Source of the DNA: Flavobacterium rivuli WB 3.3-2 = DSM 21788
GTDB lineage: Bacteria; Bacteroidota; Bacteroidia; Flavobacteriales; Flavobacteriaceae
Assembly: GCF_000378485.1 (NCBI RefSeq)
Contig: NZ_KB899966.1
Span: 1 to 64,000 of the forward strand
DNA: 64,000 bases
Direction: 5' to 3'
This document shows positions 5,133 to 33,396 of the stretch, piece by piece. Position 1 is the stretch's first letter. The number at the start of each line of letters is the position of its first letter. The position numbers and the translations under genes are program-made. The notes beneath the pieces were generated by a model that was not told the DNA's origin, did not search any database, and saw only the letters and a program-made list of their open reading frames with translations.

Positions 5133-5714
5133 CTATGATTTTTTTACATACTTGGTAAGGATAACAATTAACTGGCCGTCAATTTTTCCCTCTACCTGTT
5201 CTATATTATCATGTACCAGGCGGATGTTGCGCACTGCTGTACCCACTTTTGCATTAATGGTAGAACCCTTTACATCAAGGTCTTTTATAAGGGTAACAGT
5301 ATCGCCGGTTTGCAAAATATTGCCGTTGCTGTCTTTATGAAACTGCACGCTGGCATCGCCGGTATGGTCGCCGGTAGCTTTAGCCCATTCTAACAGTTCG
5401 TCGTCAACGTACATCATATCAAGTGCATCGGCAGCCCAGCTCTCGTTACGGAAACGGTTTAGCATACGCCAGGAAACCACCTGTACGGCAGGCACTTCAC
5501 TCCACATAGAGGTTGGTAGTACACCCTGCCAAAAATCGGCATCCGGTTCCTCTTTTTTCTCTATCTGGTTAAAGCATTTTTCAGTTATAAGTATGTAACC
5601 ATCTGCACCGCGGTTAATGGCCGGTGGCACCTCATAAGCGGTAAGATTGTCTGCTACACTACTTAGTTCGCATTGGTTTCCGCTTCGTTGCTGCAGTATT
5701 TCTTCTAATTTCAT
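5133..5714 (-). CDS. PhnA domain-containing protein (YjdM-like)
   Basis: The 193-residue protein has two parts. The N-terminus ('LQQRSGNQCELS', about residues 6-17) keeps the PhnA zinc-ribbon start but only one clear Cys. The C-terminal 65 residues ('DSNGNILQTGDTVTLIKDL', 'KGSTINAKVGTAVRNIRL', 'IDGQLIVILTKYVKK') are a complete PhnA/YjdM SH3-like domain. The middle ('WQGVLPTSMWSEVPAVQVVSWRML') is conserved in the long Bacteroidota form. Despite the historic name, the family is not a proven phosphonate hydrolase. It is a monocistronic gene and its role is unknown. Confidence 0.85.
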   Translation of the reverse strand: MKLEEILQQRSGNQCELSSVADNLTAYEVPPAINRGADGYILITEKCFNQIEKKEEPDADFWQGVLPTSMWSEVPAVQVVSWRMLNRFRNESWAADALDMMYVDDELLEWAKATGDHTGDASVQFHKDSNGNILQTGDTVTLIKDLDVKGSTINAKVGTAVRNIRLVHDNIEQVEGKIDGQLIVILTKYVKKS

Positions 5715-5799
5715 TGTTTGGCTTTTATGGGCGCAAAGATAGGGATTTGGAAAAAATAATAGGTATTAATAAAAGCAATTGTATATACAGAGTACAGTT

Positions 5800-5881
5800 G
5801 CTGGCGTGAGCGTCACGCTCGTGCGTTAAATATTACATTTGTTTATAACTTTACCGGCACGAGCTTGAAGCTCGCGCTAGC
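5800..5881. repeat. REPIN-like pair of inverted palindromic repeats
   Basis: Two 25-26-base palindromic units face each other: 5800-5824 (core GAGCGTCACGCTC) and 5856-5881 (core GAGCTTGAAGCTC). They are separated by about 30 AT-rich bases. The second is an inverted copy of the first, and changes in one stem arm are matched by changes in the other. This is the organisation of REP doublets mobilised by REP-associated tyrosine transposases. No such transposase is in the window. Confidence 0.7.
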
Positions 5882-5888
5882 GGGGGGA

Positions 5889-6257
5889 TTACTTAATTCT
5901 TGTATATTCATCTTTATATTCATTTACAGTCACTGTGCCATCTGTTTCTGATTCACTTGGTAGATATAATTTTCCATCTTTGAACTTATATTTTATCTTT
6001 TTCGTACTCACCATTGTACCGCTCATAAAAATAGTTTCAATGTAATATGTTATTCCATTTTCTGATTCAAGTTTGTAGGTTGCTTTTAATTTTTTATTAA
6101 TACTTTCAAGGGTAATAAGATTTAAAAAGTTTAATTGCCCATCCTTCGTAAATTCAATAGCTGTCTTACTTTGCGGGGATTTAGTCCAAACTCCAACTAT
6201 ACTTTGAGAGAAAGCTATGCATGGAAAAAGGACTAATAAAATAATATATTTTTTCAT
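5889..6257 (-). CDS. Small secreted lipocalin-like protein
   Basis: The 122-residue protein has a clear Sec signal peptide (residues 1-17, ending AFSQS). Next comes 'IVGVWTKSP...AIEFTKDGQLNFL', the 'G.W......i.F..dG' opening typical of small lipocalin-like domains of Bacteroidota. The remainder alternates short beta strands ('YKLESENGITYYIET', 'KIKYKFKDGKLYLPS'). The mature protein of about 105 residues probably forms a periplasmic beta-barrel or sandwich. It is monocistronic, with a REPIN-like repeat immediately downstream. No specific ligand or function can be assigned. Confidence 0.65.
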   Translation of the reverse strand: MKKYIILLVLFPCIAFSQSIVGVWTKSPQSKTAIEFTKDGQLNFLNLITLESINKKLKATYKLESENGITYYIETIFMSGTMVSTKKIKYKFKDGKLYLPSESETDGTVTVNEYKDEYTRIK

Positions 6258-6876
6258 TATTTACATGGTATTAAAGACGGTCGGGCTGTTTGGAGTTAAT
6301 TTTTTAAAGTCCGAATGACGTTGGACTCTGAATAAAATTGTTTTATAGGAGGCAATGGGTAAACTCATAAAATCAATATTTATCAATTCTAAATATGCAT
6401 TGAAAAGGAACTTCTTTTCATCTTCCATAAACCTACTTATAATTAAATAAACTTACAAAAATTATTCTTACAAGGAATAAAGATTTTCATCGATAATCTT
6501 TACATACTAATACCATTGTTCTGCTATTTTCTAATTTTTGTTTGTCACATAATAAATGATTATTCTAAAATCACTACGGATTTCAACTCAAAATTTAAAC
6601 ATAAGCATCTCTCCCGTGCAGGCTTTGAAATACACGAGAGATTAATGCTTACTAATAGTTGGTTAATGGTGTAATAAGTTTATTGTTGGGGAAAATAATC
6701 TATTAATAACCAAACTGTTCAAAAATACACAGAACATTTTCGGCAAACATAAAGCCTTTATTGAATGATTAAAGGAGGTTTTCCTCATTTTAAAATATTT
6801 TTTATAACACTCACATCATCTTATGTTATTTTCTTACTTTTGAAATATCATAATTAATGATTATTCAAAAATCGCT
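6258..6876. other. 619-bp intergenic region with duplicated leader of the E1 gene
   Basis: No full gene was found here. It holds an imperfect copy (6525-6590) of the promoter/start region of the downstream dehydrogenase (6827-6890). Between the copies is a long-armed hairpin (6602-6651; arms TAAGCATCTCTCCCGTG and CACGAGAGATTAATGCTTA). In the upstream copy the position matching the E1 start codon reads ACG (6576-6578). Both copies keep a short frame beginning MII-x-KSL-x-IST, at 6556 (29 codons) and 6857 (14 codons). Confidence 0.6.
6835..6842 (+). promoter_or_regulatory. Bacteroidota -7 element of the E1 dehydrogenase promoter
   Basis: TACTTTTG matches TAnnTTTG exactly and lies 34 bases before the E1 start codon. 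A good TTTG partner 19 bases upstream is not present. Confidence 0.5.
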
Positions 6877-27753: not shown

Positions 27754-27773
27754 TATTTTCTATAAATTATACA

Positions 27774-27802
27774 GGCGGCATCATTAGGTGCCGCCTTTTT
27801 TT
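27774..27802 (+). terminator. Rho-independent terminator of acs
   Basis: GGCGGCA pairs with TGCCGCC (7 bp, 8-base loop), followed by seven T. It separates acs from the polyketide operon. Confidence 0.92.
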
Positions 27803-27851: not shown

Positions 27852-28988
27852 ATGGCTACAAATCATGATGTGCTTATTATTGGTGGTGGACTGGCCGGAC
27901 TGGCCTCTGCCATTCATTTGTCTAAACAGGGGCTATCTGTTATTGTTATAGAAAAATCAGGTTATCCCAGGCATAAAGTATGTGGCGAATATATTTCGAA
28001 TGAAATTTTGCCATACCTGGAATGGCTTGATGTTGATGTTTCTACATTAAATCCGACACAACTACACCGTTTAGAATTTTCTACCACAACCAGAAGAGCC
28101 ATTACTGCACAATTGCCATTGGGCGGTTTTGGCATAAGCCGTTTTACTTTAGATAATTTTCTGTATCTAAAGGCATTGGCTAATGGCTGCATGTTTATAG
28201 AAGATACTGTTAATGATGTTTTTATTCAGGATGATATGTTTAGGGTACAGACTAAAAATGATATGTATATGTCTAAAATAGTATTAGGTGCCTTTGGCAA
28301 ACGATCAAATATCGATCAGCAATTAGCAAGAAGTTTTATCGGGACTAAATCACCCTGGCTTGCTGTAAAAGCACATTACAGCGGTAATTTCCCTAATGAT
28401 TTAGTAGCATTGCATAATTTTAGCGGTGGCTATTGTGGTGTGTCTAAAGTTGAAGACAATAAAATAAACATTTGCTACCTCGCAGATTATGCTACTTTTA
28501 AGCAGTATAAAAATATAGAAGACTATCAGCATGAAGTACTGTATAAAAATAAATGCCTTGAAACAATCTTTGAAAATAGCACCATCATGTTTGATAAGCC
28601 CTTAACGATTGGCCAGATATGTTTTGATAAAAAACTGTCTGTTGAAAAACATATTCTTATGATGGGCGATAGCGCCGGGCTTATTCATCCGCTTTGTGGT
28701 AATGGTATGGCCATGGCAATACATAGTGCTAAAATTGCATCAGAGTTGGTTTTATGTTATTATTCCGGGCAAATAACCCGTGAAGTTTTAGAAAAACAAT
28801 ATGCCCTCCACTGGAACAGGCTGTTTAACAAACGCTTGTTTACAGGCAGGATGCTGGGCAAGGTTTTACAAAATAAATCGCTGACGAACCAGCTGATGGA
28901 AGCTGCAGTAAATTTCCCGGTAATAGTGTCAAAAATTGTAAAGCATACTCATGGTAAACCCATTAAAACTGCTGCTAAATGGGAATAA
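27852..28988 (+). CDS. FAD-dependent oxidoreductase/monooxygenase (geranylgeranyl reductase-like) of the type III PKS operon
   Basis: The 378-residue protein starts with the dinucleotide motif 'DVLIIGGGLAGLASAIHL' (about 6-23). It then has 'YPRHKVCGEYISNEILPYLE', typical of the GGR/UbiH-like group, and 'MMGDSAGLIHPLCGNGMAMAIHSAKIA' (about 271-297), which binds the FAD ribitol. It is the first gene of a seven-gene operon with a methyltransferase and a type III PKS; an upstream TTTG (27818) and TAAATTAG (27838) form a weak promoter match. By analogy with SrsC of Streptomyces griseus it may hydroxylate or oxidise a polyketide ring; reduction of an alkyl chain is the alternative. Confidence 0.85.
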   Translation: MATNHDVLIIGGGLAGLASAIHLSKQGLSVIVIEKSGYPRHKVCGEYISNEILPYLEWLDVDVSTLNPTQLHRLEFSTTTRRAITAQLPLGGFGISRFTLDNFLYLKALANGCMFIEDTVNDVFIQDDMFRVQTKNDMYMSKIVLGAFGKRSNIDQQLARSFIGTKSPWLAVKAHYSGNFPNDLVALHNFSGGYCGVSKVEDNKINICYLADYATFKQYKNIEDYQHEVLYKNKCLETIFENSTIMFDKPLTIGQICFDKKLSVEKHILMMGDSAGLIHPLCGNGMAMAIHSAKIASELVLCYYSGQITREVLEKQYALHWNRLFNKRLFTGRMLGKVLQNKSLTNQLMEAAVNFPVIVSKIVKHTHGKPIKTAAKWE

Positions 28989-29692
28989 ATACTAATTACC
29001 GCACACAGGAACCAGAAATAATGGACGATTTTTTACTTAAAGGTGAGGAACTACGTGATGCTTTAGACAAAATTGCAGCCATTAATCAATTGCTTGGCGG
29101 CAATAAACTTACATTAAGCGGGATTAGGCGATTGCTTACCAATCATGACAAAAATAAAACTATTACTATAGTTGATATTGGCTGTGGAAATGGCGATATG
29201 CTGCGCATGCTTGCTAATTATGGCAAAGCACAACATCTTAACCTAAATTTAATAGGTATTGATGCTAATGCCTTTACCATTAGTTATGCAGAGCAGCTTA
29301 CAGAGAAATATTCTAATATAACATTTAAGTGTATCGATATCTTCAGCCCGCAATTTAATAAACTAAATTATGATATTGTACTATGCACACTTACGTTACA
29401 CCATTTTTCAGACAACGATATTGAAGATATTATTGCTACCTTTAAGAAAAATGCAGCTATAGGTGTTGTAATAAACGACCTGCACCGTAGTAAATTAGCC
29501 TATAGGCTTTTTGCTGTAATCTGCAGGATCTTTGCCTTAAACAGGATGTCTCGTAAAGACGGCCTGGTATCTATACTACGAGGTTTTAAAAAAGAAGAAC
29601 TTGAAGCCTATTCTCAAAAACTGAATTTAAAAAACTACAGCATTCACTGGAAATGGGCATTTAGGTACCAATGGATAATATATAACCTATGA
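28979..29692 (+). CDS. SAM-dependent methyltransferase of the type III PKS operon
   Basis: The 237-residue class I methyltransferase has motif I 'TIVDIGCGNGDMLRML' (about 61-76), 'LIGIDANAFTISYAEQL', and 'DIVLCTLTLHHFSDNDIEDII' as motif IV/V. The start 'NYRTQEPEIMDDFLLKGEELRDALDKIAAINQLLGG' matches the family often found beside type III PKS genes. It overlaps the oxidoreductase by 10 bases and the PKS by 4, so all three are translationally coupled. Likely target is a hydroxyl or ring carbon of the polyketide, as for SrsB or BpsB; this is inference. Confidence 0.88.
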   Translation: MGINTNYRTQEPEIMDDFLLKGEELRDALDKIAAINQLLGGNKLTLSGIRRLLTNHDKNKTITIVDIGCGNGDMLRMLANYGKAQHLNLNLIGIDANAFTISYAEQLTEKYSNITFKCIDIFSPQFNKLNYDIVLCTLTLHHFSDNDIEDIIATFKKNAAIGVVINDLHRSKLAYRLFAVICRIFALNRMSRKDGLVSILRGFKKEELEAYSQKLNLKNYSIHWKWAFRYQWIIYNL

Positions 29693-30741
29693 GTGTAAAA
29701 ATAGTAACCGCTACAAAGCAATTGCCTCAATATTCGCGAACTACAGCAGATATATTACCCCTTTTAGACGGTTGGCTGCAAGGCCAGGACGAGCGTTTTA
29801 TCAAAAAGGTAAAGAAAATATTTGAAGGTGCAGCAGTAGATGTCCGCTATTCTATAATGGATCCGCTGGAGGTTTTTACGGCCACATCATTTGAAGATAA
29901 AAATGATATTTATGTACGCGAAGTAATTAAGCTTGGCGAACAGGTATTGCAAAACGCATTAAGTAAAGCAGGGTGGGAGCCGCAAACGCTGGATTATATT
30001 ATAACAGTGAGCTGTACCGGCATAATGATACCCTCGCTTGATGCTTACCTTATTAATAAAATGAATCTGCGGCAGGATATTGTGCGCCTGCCGGTAACAG
30101 AGATGGGCTGTGCAGCAGGTATATCAGGAATTATATATGCTAAGAATTTTTTAAAGGCAAATCCGGGAAAACGTGCTGCTGTTATAGCAGTAGAGTCGCC
30201 AACGGCAACATTTCAGCTCGATGATTTTTCTATGCCTAATATTGTAAGTGCAGCAATATTTGGCGATGGTGCAGCCTGTTGCTTATTATCATCTTACAAA
30301 GAAGATAGTGGCCCTGAAATTATAGATGAGCAAATGTATCATTTTTATGACGCAGAACACATGATGGGCTTTAAGCTTACTAACAGTGGCCTGCAAATGG
30401 TTTTAGATATTGAAGTGCCGGACACAATTGCGGCACATTTTGGCGATATCATTCATCCATTCCTGCAACGCAATAATCTTACTATAGAAGATATTGATCA
30501 TCTTATATTTCATCCCGGTGGAAAAAAGATAGTACAGACGGTAGAAGAATTATTCTCCGGCCTTGGCAAGAACATAAACGATACTAAAGAAGTATTGCGG
30601 CACTATGGCAACATGTCGAGCGCAACGGTACTTTATGTTTTAGAACGTATTTTAGACAGTAACCCAAAAGTGGGAGAGCGGGGGGTAATGCTAAGTTTTG
30701 GTCCAGGATTTTCGGCGCAACGTGTTTTATTACAATGGTAA
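29689..30741 (+). CDS. Type III polyketide synthase (chalcone/stilbene synthase family)
   Basis: The 350-residue thiolase-fold synthase has its catalytic triad visible: Cys141 in 'TEMGCAAGISG', His275 in 'IFHPGGKKIV' and Asn308 in 'GNMSSATV'. The C-terminal 'LSFGPGFSAQRVLLQW' is the family G-F-G-P-G loop. Bacterial members extend acyl-CoA or acyl-ACP with malonyl-CoA and cyclise to pyrones, resorcinols or phloroglucinols. Here an ACP, ketosynthase and dehydratase lie in the same operon, so a long or unsaturated acyl-ACP starter is plausible. Product is unknown. Confidence 0.95.
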   Translation: MSVKIVTATKQLPQYSRTTADILPLLDGWLQGQDERFIKKVKKIFEGAAVDVRYSIMDPLEVFTATSFEDKNDIYVREVIKLGEQVLQNALSKAGWEPQTLDYIITVSCTGIMIPSLDAYLINKMNLRQDIVRLPVTEMGCAAGISGIIYAKNFLKANPGKRAAVIAVESPTATFQLDDFSMPNIVSAAIFGDGAACCLLSSYKEDSGPEIIDEQMYHFYDAEHMMGFKLTNSGLQMVLDIEVPDTIAAHFGDIIHPFLQRNNLTIEDIDHLIFHPGGKKIVQTVEELFSGLGKNINDTKEVLRHYGNMSSATVLYVLERILDSNPKVGERGVMLSFGPGFSAQRVLLQW

Positions 30742-30758
30742 ACAAAAAGATTTAATTT

Positions 30759-31196
30759 ATGGAATTTAATGATATTTTAGCAAAGCTGCCATATAGCAAA
30801 CCCTTTTTATTTGTAGATGAGCTTTTACATGTAGATGAAAATAGCATAAGCGGCACATATACTTTTGATGAGAATCTCGACTTTTACAAAGGCCATTTTA
30901 AAGGCAACCCTGTGACCCCCGGAGTAATTTTAACCGAAACTATGGCACAGATAGGTATGGTGTGCCTTGGAATTTATCTCTTAGATGATAAGTTGACACC
31001 AGAGACTGTAATAGCCTTTACATCAGCCGATATGCAATTTTTAAAAGCTGTTTATCCTAATGAAAAAGTAACCGTATTTGCAGAGAAAACATTTTTTAGG
31101 TTTGGTAAGATAAAATGTAACGTGGTTATGAAAAACGAAGCTGGAGACGAAGTTTGTAAAGGCGTAGTTGCAGGCATGATAACTAAAAACCTATGA
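30759..31196 (+). CDS. 3-hydroxyacyl-ACP dehydratase, FabZ-like hot-dog protein
   Basis: The 145-residue single hot-dog domain has the FabZ active-site region 'FYKGHFKGNPVTPGVILTETMAQIG'. The catalytic His is His46, and the usual acidic residue is Glu in 'LTETMAQ'. The N-terminal 'LPYSKPFLFVDELLHVDENSISG' is also typical of FabZ. It dehydrates beta-hydroxyacyl-ACP to enoyl-ACP. It sits between the PKS and a ketosynthase and overlaps the latter by 4 bases. It probably introduces a double bond into an acyl starter or chain. Confidence 0.9.
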   Translation: MEFNDILAKLPYSKPFLFVDELLHVDENSISGTYTFDENLDFYKGHFKGNPVTPGVILTETMAQIGMVCLGIYLLDDKLTPETVIAFTSADMQFLKAVYPNEKVTVFAEKTFFRFGKIKCNVVMKNEAGDEVCKGVVAGMITKNL

Positions 31197-32467
31197 AGCG
31201 CAGAGTGGTAATAACCGGCATGGGTATAGTTGCCCCAAATGGGGTAGGTATTCCTGCATTTACCCACGCTATAAAAAACGGCACATCGGGTATCAGGCAT
31301 GATAAGCAGTTAGAACAACTTAAATTTTCCTGCCAGATTGCCGGTCAGCCTGTTATTACAGAAGAAATAAAATCTAACTATTTTACTGACCTTGATCTTC
31401 GCGGCTTTAACAGCACCGGAATTATGTACGGTATTATTGCAGGTATGGAAGCATGGGTTAATGCCGGTTTGCCCATCAATAATAATGAAGACCCTGACTG
31501 GGATAGTGGGACTATTTTTGGTTCCGGGACATCCGGTATTGATAAATTCAGGGAAAGTATTTATAAAATAGACGAGTTACAAACCCGAAGGTTAGGCAGT
31601 ACCGTTGTAGCACAAACCATGAATAGTGGCATAAGCGCCTATCTTGGAGGTAAACTGGGGTTAGGTAATATTGTTACCACAAACTCTTCGGCCTGTGCAA
31701 CAGGTGCAGAGGCTATTTTAATGGCTTATGAACGTATACTATCAGGCAAGGCAAAACGTATACTTGCAGGCAGTACAGGAGACAGCGGCCCTTACATTTG
31801 GGCAGGATTTGATGCTATGCGGGTTTGTACCTCTAAACATAATGATTCTCCTGAAAAAGGATCGCGTCCAATGAGTGCTTCTGCGTCAGGATTTGTGCCC
31901 GGAAGCGGTGCAGGAGCATTAGTTATAGAAGATTTAGAAACTGCCCTGCAGCGCGGAGCTACCATTTATGCCGAAATACTGGGTGGCCATGTAAATTCTG
32001 GCGGGCAGCGTGGTAGTGGAACTATGACGGCACCAAATAGTGTTGCGGTGCAGCGATGTATAACATCGGCTTTAGAAAATGCAGGGGTAACTCCGGATGC
32101 TGTTGATGTAATCAACGGGCATTTAACAGCAACCACCAAAGACAGCCTTGAAATAGAGAACTGGACTAAAGCATTAGGGCGCAGCGGAGTAGATTTTCCT
32201 TATATAAATTCGATAAAATCAATGACGGGACACTGCCTTAGTGCCGCAGGAAGCATAGAAAGTGTTGCTGCAGTATTGCAATTGCATGAAGGATTTATAT
32301 TTTCAAATATTAACTGCGACGACCTGAACCCAGAGATTGCAGTACTGATTGATGCTTCAAAAATTCCAACTAAAATCATAAATAGAGAACTGAATATAAT
32401 TGCCAAAGCCAGTTTTGGTTTTGGCGATGTAAATGCATGCATCATATTTAAAAAATATAATACTTAA
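31193..32467 (+). CDS. Beta-ketoacyl-ACP synthase (FabF-like)
   Basis: The 424-residue condensing enzyme has Cys168 in 'TNSSACATGAEAI', His310 in 'VINGHLTATTKDS', and Lys342 and His347 in 'SIKSMTGHCLSAAGS'. So the decarboxylative Cys-His-His set is intact, though the second motif is 'GHLTATTKDS' instead of the usual 'AHGTGTPLND'. It should elongate acyl-ACP with malonyl-ACP. No ketoreductase or enoyl reductase is in the operon, so these steps would be borrowed from fatty acid synthesis. Coupled to the dehydratase by an ATGA overlap. Confidence 0.92.
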   Translation: MKRRVVITGMGIVAPNGVGIPAFTHAIKNGTSGIRHDKQLEQLKFSCQIAGQPVITEEIKSNYFTDLDLRGFNSTGIMYGIIAGMEAWVNAGLPINNNEDPDWDSGTIFGSGTSGIDKFRESIYKIDELQTRRLGSTVVAQTMNSGISAYLGGKLGLGNIVTTNSSACATGAEAILMAYERILSGKAKRILAGSTGDSGPYIWAGFDAMRVCTSKHNDSPEKGSRPMSASASGFVPGSGAGALVIEDLETALQRGATIYAEILGGHVNSGGQRGSGTMTAPNSVAVQRCITSALENAGVTPDAVDVINGHLTATTKDSLEIENWTKALGRSGVDFPYINSIKSMTGHCLSAAGSIESVAAVLQLHEGFIFSNINCDDLNPEIAVLIDASKIPTKIINRELNIIAKASFGFGDVNACIIFKKYNT

Positions 32468-32471
32468 CGCC

Positions 32472-32726
32472 ATGAACAAACAGGAACTTATAGAAAAACT
32501 AAAGATTATTGTAAAACCTTATACAACAAATAGTGAGGCGTACCAAAACCTTAATGAAAATACTGACTTTATAAAGGACCTGAAAATAAATTCGGCTAAC
32601 CTTGTAGATATTGTACTGGATGTAGAAGAGCAGTTTGATGTGATAATTGAAAATGAAGATATGGAGCGGATGCTCGATATAAAGACAGCTGTAGAAATCA
32701 TTGAAACCAAACTTGCAGCAAAATGA
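32472..32726 (+). CDS. Acyl carrier protein
   Basis: The protein has 84 residues from the ATG at 32472; an upstream in-frame ATG lies inside the ketosynthase and is unlikely. The helix II start reads 'LKINSANLVDIVLDVEEQFDV', so the phosphopantetheine Ser is probably Ser41 in N-S-A rather than the usual D-S-L. The protein is acidic and four-helical in pattern. It should carry the growing acyl chain for the ketosynthase, dehydratase and possibly the type III PKS. It overlaps the transferase gene by 4 bases. Confidence 0.85.
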   Translation: MNKQELIEKLKIIVKPYTTNSEAYQNLNENTDFIKDLKINSANLVDIVLDVEEQFDVIIENEDMERMLDIKTAVEIIETKLAAK

Positions 32727-33208
32727 TAGGTAATGATGTTGTAGATATCATACAATCGCGTAAAGAAAGCAACTGGCAGCGCCAGGGTTTTTTAAATAAG
32801 ATATTTACCACCGAGGAACAGCAATTTATTACAATCTATCCTGATCCGGAAATTATGGTATGGATACTCTGGAGTATGAAAGAAGCAGCTTATAAAATAT
32901 ATAACAGGCAAACAGCAGTACGTTCATTTAATCCCAAGCATCTGGTTTGTAATATTAATAATAAACATTACGGGACAGTAATGTGTTATAATTTAATATT
33001 TTATACTACAACAAGTGTAAAAAAAAATTGCATTTATACAGTTGCCTCAACATCAAAAAAAAATCTTAAAAACGTATACGAAATATATGACCCGTTGATT
33101 TTTAAAGATAATAATGGATTGCCTTATGTAATAAATAACAAAGGAAAGATACAGCCAGTATCTGTAAGCCATCATGGAAAATATTATAAAATTGCTGGAT
33201 TAATATAG
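32723..33208 (+). CDS. 4'-Phosphopantetheinyl transferase
   Basis: The 161-residue member of the PPTase superfamily has 'IGNDVVDI' at the N-terminus and 'WILWSMKEAAYKIYNRQ' (about 47-63), the two metal/CoA-binding motifs. It transfers phosphopantetheine from CoA to the carrier protein. Being last in the operon and coupled by ATGA to the ACP gene, it most likely primes that ACP, whose acceptor motif is unusual. The C-terminal third is divergent and lysine-rich. Confidence 0.88.
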   Translation: MIGNDVVDIIQSRKESNWQRQGFLNKIFTTEEQQFITIYPDPEIMVWILWSMKEAAYKIYNRQTAVRSFNPKHLVCNINNKHYGTVMCYNLIFYTTTSVKKNCIYTVASTSKKNLKNVYEIYDPLIFKDNNGLPYVINNKGKIQPVSVSHHGKYYKIAGLI

Positions 33209-33365: not shown

Positions 33366-33396
33366 TTTGAGTATTATCCATTTTTAAATATATTTG
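33366..33396 (+). promoter_or_regulatory. Canonical Bacteroidota promoter of the PAS kinase gene
   Basis: TTTG (33366-33369), exactly 19 bases, then TATATTTG (33389-33396) is a full match to the -33/-7 consensus of the primary sigma factor in Bacteroidota. It lies 27 bases ahead of the start codon. The rest of the 33209-33423 gap shows nothing else. Confidence 0.75.

Follow-up and report, generated by a model that had tools for sequence, protein, structure and literature searches.

The SrsABC system of Streptomyces and the BpsAB system of Bacillus pair a type III polyketide synthase (PKS) with a methyltransferase, accompanied in Srs by a flavoprotein, and their methyltransferase, SrsB included, is of the ICMT type. 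A PKS with a methyltransferase (MT) and a flavoprotein is also encoded in the DNA analysed here, a stretch of 64,000 nucleotides from Flavobacterium rivuli WB 3.3-2 = DSM 21788 (the window; positions 1 to 64,000 of contig NZ_KB899966.1), within a seven-gene operon that further encodes a dehydratase (DH), a ketosynthase (KS), an acyl carrier protein (ACP) and a 4'-phosphopantetheinyl transferase (PPT). On balance we favour reading it as a phenolic-lipid operon with its own acyl-ACP starter supply, and its PKS probably makes aromatic lipids.

The nearest known logic is that of Azotobacter vinelandii, where the ArsABCD operon combines a type III PKS with a fatty acid synthase (FAS) of its own and a PPTase (ArsD) (PMC4824345), and where the ACP domain of the operon-encoded ArsA hands its chains straight to ArsB and ArsC (PMC6274091; statements cited here and below come from excerpts of the papers named). 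The window operon likewise encodes FAS activities (KS, DH and ACP) and a PPTase together with a PKS. However, Ars has a multidomain type I FAS and two PKSs, whereas the window has discrete KS, DH and ACP proteins, with an enoyl reductase (ER) added in relatives, and an extra MT and flavoprotein. Adjacent genes for a PKS, a methyltransferase and an oxidoreductase also occur in the cyanobacterial HidABC operon, compared here by description, and in planctomycete operons. A C14 acyl-ACP starter has been proposed for HidC of the hierridin pathway (PMC8086630), and planctomycete PKSs from such trio operons gave C15 and C17 alkylresorcinols in Corynebacterium (PMC10896814), but the excerpts of these two papers describe no KS/DH/ACP cassette. 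The Bacteroidota PKSs found in such trios belong to a different clan from the window PKS.

Two further systems share single features with the operon. In DarAB, dialkylresorcinols (DAR) are built from two intermediates of the fatty-acid pathway (PMC3992019); DarAB resembles the window in standing beside a matching ER-DH-KS-ACP-PPT block in two genomes, but the window operon has neither DarA nor DarB and uses a different condensing enzyme. In Caulobacter, AcpR/AasR provide a specialised ACP that supplies serine palmitoyltransferase (PMC9386255). As in the window, one specialised ACP would serve one lipid-forming condensing enzyme, but the chain is loaded there by an acyl-ACP synthetase, whereas in the window private KS and DH enzymes would build it.

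The features of the window operon are as follows.

27773..27796, + strand: intrinsic terminator that follows the acetyl-CoA synthetase gene upstream; 10-pair stem, loop of 4, T run
27852..28988, + strand: flavin adenine dinucleotide (FAD)-dependent oxidoreductase, geranylgeranyl-reductase / FAD_binding_3 superfamily; TIGR02032 104 bits (cutoff 158.8), PF01494
28979..29692, + strand: class I S-adenosylmethionine-dependent methyltransferase (MT); PF13649/PF13847; PRK06202 family match below cutoff
29689..30741, + strand: type III polyketide synthase, F type; PF00195/PF02797 above cutoff; triad C141/H275/N308
30193..30213, + strand: PKS codons 169-175 (codons checked), signature ESPTATF with Pro171, which aligns with the Cys of the Pks11 ELC
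30742..30758, + strand: PKS-DH junction of 17 nt, without an enoyl reductase gene; 24/46 relatives have a FabL-like gene there
30759..31196, + strand: FabZ-like hot-dog dehydratase (DH); PF07977; H46, E60
31193..32467, + strand: FabF-like elongating ketosynthase (KS); PF00109/PF02801; fabF 277 bits (cutoff 494); C168/H310/H347
32433..32726, + strand: acyl carrier protein (ACP); ACP models below their cutoffs; Ser54
32723..33208, + strand: 4'-phosphopantetheinyl transferase (PPT); PF01648

Conservation and linkage of the chain-building genes

A contig scan gave 319 stretches encoding a relative, with records very near the window's own perhaps left out, and the best 80 of these were taken as named Flavobacteriaceae loci. 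Seven genes stand in one order and on one strand in 79 of the 80; the exception (L094) is cut by a contig end after the PKS gene, and the oxidoreductase gene of L113 is cut by a contig start. The operon arrangement is therefore beyond chance, and the gene order read from the window recurs among its relatives. In none of the 79 loci does the PKS-DH gap exceed 558 nt, which leaves no room for the enoyl reductase gene of other relatives. The closest named PKS match among the matches listed, at 90%, is from F. subsaxonicum, where homologues of acetyl-CoA synthetase and histidine kinase lie on either side of the locus, as they do in the window.

Across the phylum the picture can be quantified in an even sample of 395 Bacteroidota genomes (the phylum draw). 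A type III PKS was found in 169 of them (E<=1e-30), and a PKS of the window's type, which we call the F type, in 33, at 68-100% identity with the next best match at 35%; the 33 include 17 of the 24 genomes of the genus in the draw. Locus stretches were compared for all 33 F-type genomes and for 64 loci from the other 136 genomes with a PKS match, using profiles built from the F-type genes. DH, KS and ACP genes adjoin the PKS in 33 of 33 F-type genomes, and an F-type KS was found within 5 kb of none of the 64 other type III PKSs, 12 of which lie closer than 5 kb to a contig end. The reverse search, with the KS of locus L255 as query (E<=1e-90), placed this KS type in 38 of the 395 genomes, namely all 33 F-type genomes and 5 of the 362 others. 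The sequence-only reading had held that KS, DH and ACP are dedicated to the PKS, and this co-occurrence supports that idea.

When another 395 genomes, drawn from the class, were searched in the same way, 32 had the KS type, of which 18 were new and 13 of these F-type. Found through the KS, the 13 loci are uninformative on co-occurrence and add gene content only. Together with the first 33 they form a set of 46 related loci in which PKS, MT, DH and KS genes are each present 46 times, the oxidoreductase 45, ACP 41, PPT 34 and an enoyl reductase 24 times; the sole locus without the oxidoreductase (L325) starts at a contig end. The PKS triad and the KS residues C168, H310 and H347, which had been called intact in the window, are invariant in 46 of 46, as are H46 and E60 of the DH. 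Ser54 of the ACP is kept in 44 of 44 aligned sequences (three being 31-bit matches in loci counted as ACP-less), and D5 and E54 of the PPT in 34 of 34. The window KS is only 30-33% identical to the two other matches in its own genome (4.49 Mb in 22 contigs, Flavobacterium-like), and therefore is not a recent copy of FabF.

Synthase clan and acyl-tunnel signature

F-type PKSs form a clan of their own with support of 100 in two trees, separate from the trio/M clan (support 100). A nearer relationship of the F type to the ICMT-partnered PKSs than to the trio clan was considered and dropped, as the tree is unrooted and the split of F, T and M from the rest has a support of 33 in the best tree. Every one of the 46 F-type PKSs has E-[SA]-P-x-[AS]-T-F at the signature, and its third position is Pro in 46 of 46, compared with Cys in 65 of 65 other type III PKSs (the 64 loci and L263; one, printed EEFCSLT, was counted after a shift of one E). 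By alignment, Pro171 of the window PKS falls on the Cys of the ELC of Pks11, a long-chain pyrone synthase and the best solved relative of the window PKS. In PKS18 the equivalent of Thr194 of chalcone synthase is Cys205, which lines the acyl tunnel (PMC6274091), and by this mapping Pro171 would occupy a starter-pocket or acyl-tunnel position.

Tailoring genes

Neighbourhoods of the 64 other PKS loci fall into 23 with an ICMT-type gene, 19 PKS-MT-FAD trios (FAD here standing for the flavoprotein gene), 11 with an MT and no close FAD and 11 with none of these; examples of the ICMT (two), UbiA and flavoprotein genes were confirmed by Pfam. The sequence-only reading had likened the window genes to SrsABC, a parallel that fails by homology for the methyltransferase. 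No ICMT model matches the window MT, which is matched by the Methyltransf_25/31/12/11 models and is thus a class I enzyme, of the Methyltransf_25/31 type; ICMT-type genes partner PKSs at the 23 other loci instead. SrsABC was accordingly rejected as a homologous model for the methyltransferase.

The window FAD and MT are instead akin to those of the Bacteroidota trio loci. Mean identities between the core F-type loci (F-core) and the main trio group are 41.5% for FAD, 34.2% for MT and 27.7% for PKS, compared with 45.0%, 43.9% and 47.1% within the main trio group. Within the F-core it is the PKS that varies least, at 74.0% vs 53.8% and 52.5% for FAD and MT. Eight deep F-type loci stand further from the F-core than the trio group does in FAD (37.8%) and MT (27.7%), while their PKS is close (53.8%). 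From these identities, the PKS and the tailoring genes would differ in history and the tailoring genes may be the exchanged part; a firm claim that it was the PKS that was exchanged was dropped in view of the FAD and MT of the deep loci.

Two side observations concern these neighbourhoods. A UbiA-family prenyltransferase-like gene lies within 5 kb in 12 of the 19 trio loci (L146, L149, L152, L154, L209-L212 and L214-L217; two are Pfam-confirmed), which suggests prenylated phenols as products there. Furthermore, in the F-type locus L326 the PKS at 5575-6651 is preceded by two methyltransferase genes in tandem.

The cassette beside other lipid genes

Five genomes of the first draw carry this KS type without an F-type PKS. 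In L255 (genome G099) and L294 (G391) an ER-DH-KS-ACP-PPT block, ordered as in the F-type loci, is divergent to a DarB gene scoring 632 and 612 bits respectively, both over the cutoff of 550. The neighbour of DarB in these loci we take to be DarA, although for the L255 copy no Pfam or NCBIfam model reached the thresholds applied, and the two would then be dialkylresorcinol-type loci with their own chain-building cassette. The other three, L256-L258, form one family in which DH-KS-ACP (in L257 by profile only) stands between a gene whose product matches GNAT weakly and one for a family 2 glycosyltransferase. Only L256 has the reductase, and there the GNAT-like and glycosyltransferase genes share one side of the block, while a gene like BioF or serine palmitoyltransferase, below all cutoffs, lies about 4 kb off on the opposite side. 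L256-L258 are possibly sulfonolipid or ceramide-like lipid loci.

Five new genomes of the second draw, L317, L319/L320, L318, L327 and L328, likewise have no detected F-type PKS. L317 and L319/L320 show a different gene order, with a FabH-like KS in L320, and L318 is cut by contig ends. In L327 and L328, KS-ACP-PPT (with DH also in L328; L327 starts at a contig end) adjoins a PhyH-like dioxygenase gene, Pfam-tested in L328, and further neighbours are a glycosyltransferase-like gene and an asparagine synthase look-alike.

The presence of similar chain-making sets beside different lipid enzymes suggests a reusable part, a cassette that seems to have passed from one lipid pathway to another.

Proposed pathway and alternatives

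In the pathway we favour, whose chemical steps we infer along with the length of the chain, the type of ring and the role in the cell, the PPT would turn the dedicated ACP into its holo form, on which the KS would elongate and the DH dehydrate to build a fatty or 2-enoyl chain. Priming, malonyl transacylase and ketoreductase, the latter two not encoded within the operon, would be borrowed from housekeeping fatty acid synthesis. The type III PKS would then take the chain off the ACP, add malonyl-CoA about three times and cyclise the product to an alkyl- or alkenyl-resorcinol or a pyrone. The oxidoreductase is likely a ring hydroxylase or reductase, and would hydroxylate or reduce the ring while the MT would methylate it. 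In the absence of a reductase in the operon, the chain would either be completed by a reductase from elsewhere in the cell, such as the FabV encoded in the genome, or keep its double bond. We are led to this acyl-ACP supply model by the linkage in 33 of 33 genomes, the invariant catalytic residues, a KS that is no recent FabF copy, the cassette beside DarB, the Ars precedent and the kinship of FAD and MT with those of the trio loci.

Several observations weigh against the acyl-ACP supply model. The operon has no ketoreductase, and the best NCBIfam model for its PKS is DpgA (177 bits vs a cutoff of 425), which would imply a malonyl-only starter. Five divergent F-type clusters, L321-L325, have no dedicated ACP by profile: L321 and L323 give no ACP match, and L322, L324 and L325 give only a 31-bit match, a score that the ACP profile also reaches next to a KS of housekeeping type in the window's genome (L173). 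A further count is that of the PPT, missing from 12 of the 46 F-type loci. With the ACP absent in five loci and the PPT in 12, a private ACP is no strict requirement, and L321-L325 may use the housekeeping ACP. The scattered absence of the enoyl reductase could mean that housekeeping FAS readily takes the module's place, and the window's genome has a gene for an enoyl reductase of the FabV family (PF12241 match of 379 bits, cutoff 22.1; contig C1, 201481-202188), which could act in trans on the operon chain. Side observations on the divergent clusters are a second FabF-type KS a few genes off in L322, L324 and L325 and the lack of a PPT by profile in all five.

A more far-reaching form of the acyl-ACP supply model is that a distinct PKS clan works only on chains made on its own ACP by a portable ER-DH-KS-ACP(-PPTase) cassette, plugged into at least three head-forming systems (F-type PKS, DarAB, and GNAT with glycosyltransferase), and that in Flavobacterium the missing ER leads to a conjugated alkenyl phenolic lipid. 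We put this forward tentatively, as an idea that is possible but more doubtful than the supply model itself.

The alternative that survives best is that the PKS uses an unfinished chain. The KS would make 3-oxoacyl-ACP and the DH 2-enoyl-ACP, and without an enoyl reductase the PKS would accept the 2-enoyl or polyenoyl thioester and turn it into a conjugated alkenyl-resorcinol or into a head-to-head product like that of DarB. In 24 of the 46 F-type loci a gene of about 265 aa for a short-chain dehydrogenase/reductase (SDR) lies between PKS and DH (25 by raw profile count, before an unrelated opposite-strand gene of 84 bits in L125 was dropped). Its best NCBIfam match is FabL at 150-161 bits, below the cutoff of 328, in three of three tested, and its best solved relative is the enoyl-ACP reductase 3oic, which we take to be B. 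subtilis FabL; a Y-x6-K motif aligns in 23 of the 24, L326 being gapped there. In the first draw the reductase occurs in 12 of 33 F-type genomes, always inside the operon. No relocated FabL-like reductase was found at E<=1e-40 anywhere in the 21 first-draw genomes without it, which include all 17 PKS-bearing genomes of the genus, and with the cassette block that also stands beside DarB in L255 and L294 this speaks for an unfinished chain.

Against it, the reductase is present in about half of the family and its absence is scattered. On the PKS tree, which is unrooted, takes in 35 of the 46 loci and has several unsupported forks, presence or absence changes five times, so that absence falls in several lineages. 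The reductase is present in the deep branches, namely L323, L326 and the group L321-L330, which makes loss the simpler reading. Moreover, the window PKS is a chalcone/stilbene-type enzyme and not DarB (model NF053539, 21.9 bits vs a cutoff of 550). PF12241 matches none of 14 control genomes, and housekeeping enoyl reduction in the window's genome may rest on FabV. The FabI model NF006369 reached 69 bits at best in that genome, none over cutoff, and is uninformative since it exceeds its cutoff in just one of the 14 controls; two weak SDR candidates for a FabI-like backup were set aside as other SDRs by eye. A set of KS, DH and ACP without a dedicated reductase thus fits an unsaturated starter without proving it, because FabV is in the genome. 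The unsaturated starter put forward by the sequence-only reading keeps its footing in the reductase missing from the window, and loses some of it to the scattered absence among relatives and to FabV. We consider the unfinished-chain reading unlikely.

As an observation on the same junction, ten Flavobacterium loci (L036, L039, L040, L044, L047, L049, L055, L059, L070 and L106) have a PKS-DH gap of about 160-560 nt that looks repeat-rich by eye, with motifs like AAATCCGTTTTTATCCGCGT; these gaps occupy the place of the relatives' reductase gene.

It is less probable still that the operon follows the ordinary acyl-CoA alkylresorcinol pathway, as in planctomycetes, with KS, DH and ACP only tuning general fatty-acid supply. 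Trio loci that lack the cassette are no rarity, making up 19 of the 64 by gene content, and the planctomycete trio PKSs did yield alkylresorcinols (PMC10896814), but the cassette strictly accompanies the F-type PKS in the phylum draw and the tunnel signature differs, both of which argue otherwise. A malonyl-only or short-starter synthase of the DpgA or THNS type is very improbable and a DpgA-type assignment was rejected, for although DpgA is the top model, its score is far under the cutoff and generic, barely above those of four other Bacteroidota type III PKSs (154-174 bits), the best solved relative is the long-chain Pks11, and KS, DH and ACP would be left without a role.

Operon layout and boundaries

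Seven open reading frames, all on the + strand, were found with the positions and families given by the sequence-only reading, which also placed a terminator ahead of them and described the genes as joined by overlaps or short gaps. The terminator is there, with its 10 pairs and T run; terminator-like sites number 17 by the same scan between 25000 and 36000 vs 8.5 expected from shuffling. The overlaps held in part. Exact ATGA overlaps are present at MT/PKS, DH/KS and ACP/PPT, FAD and MT overlap by 10 nt, and a short gap separates PKS and DH, but the KS/ACP overlap hinges on the choice of ACP start. Another ATG of the same frame lies at 32472, 4 nt past the KS stop; it would give an ACP of 84 aa without a long overlap with KS and is likely the true start.

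Downstream, a PAS/histidine kinase gene starts 215 nt past the PPT. Ahead of it, at 33366-33396, lies a promoter-like element (TTTG, 19 nt, TATATTTG), which resembles the consensus of the Bacteroidota promoter. The use of this element as proof of the operon end was dropped, as TANNTTTG occurs 93 times in the window vs 94.5 expected.

Significance and outlook

Among the biosynthetic loci predicted in Flavobacteriaceae, type III PKS clusters rank with the commoner ones, making up 9% of the biosynthetic gene clusters of the family in one survey (PMC7440613) and 10.74% in a Flavobacteriaceae/Weeksellaceae set (PMC10734526). In the excerpts of these papers and of PMC9859067, the Flavobacteriaceae clusters appear as genome-mining predictions. 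A table in PMC9100364 assigns 'hypocrellin and kanamycin synthesis' to Spirosoma/Flavobacterium type III PKSs by citation, with no experiment on this operon in the excerpt. The claim that no product has been described held within the open-licence literature searched: neither product nor gene order of the operon was found there among the top-ranked papers, to which the search was confined, so that a description could be missed. A dedicated FAS feeding a type III PKS is already known; new here are the separate PKS clan, the Pro tunnel signature and a cassette common to other lipid loci.

The examined Bacteroidota type III PKS loci can now be sorted by gene content, and one type has its own chain-building cassette. 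If the acyl-ACP supply model is true, this type would be a discrete-enzyme counterpart of the Azotobacter Ars system, the choice between acyl-ACP and acyl-CoA starters would become testable in Flavobacterium, a genus with laboratory strains, and a natural cassette would be on offer.

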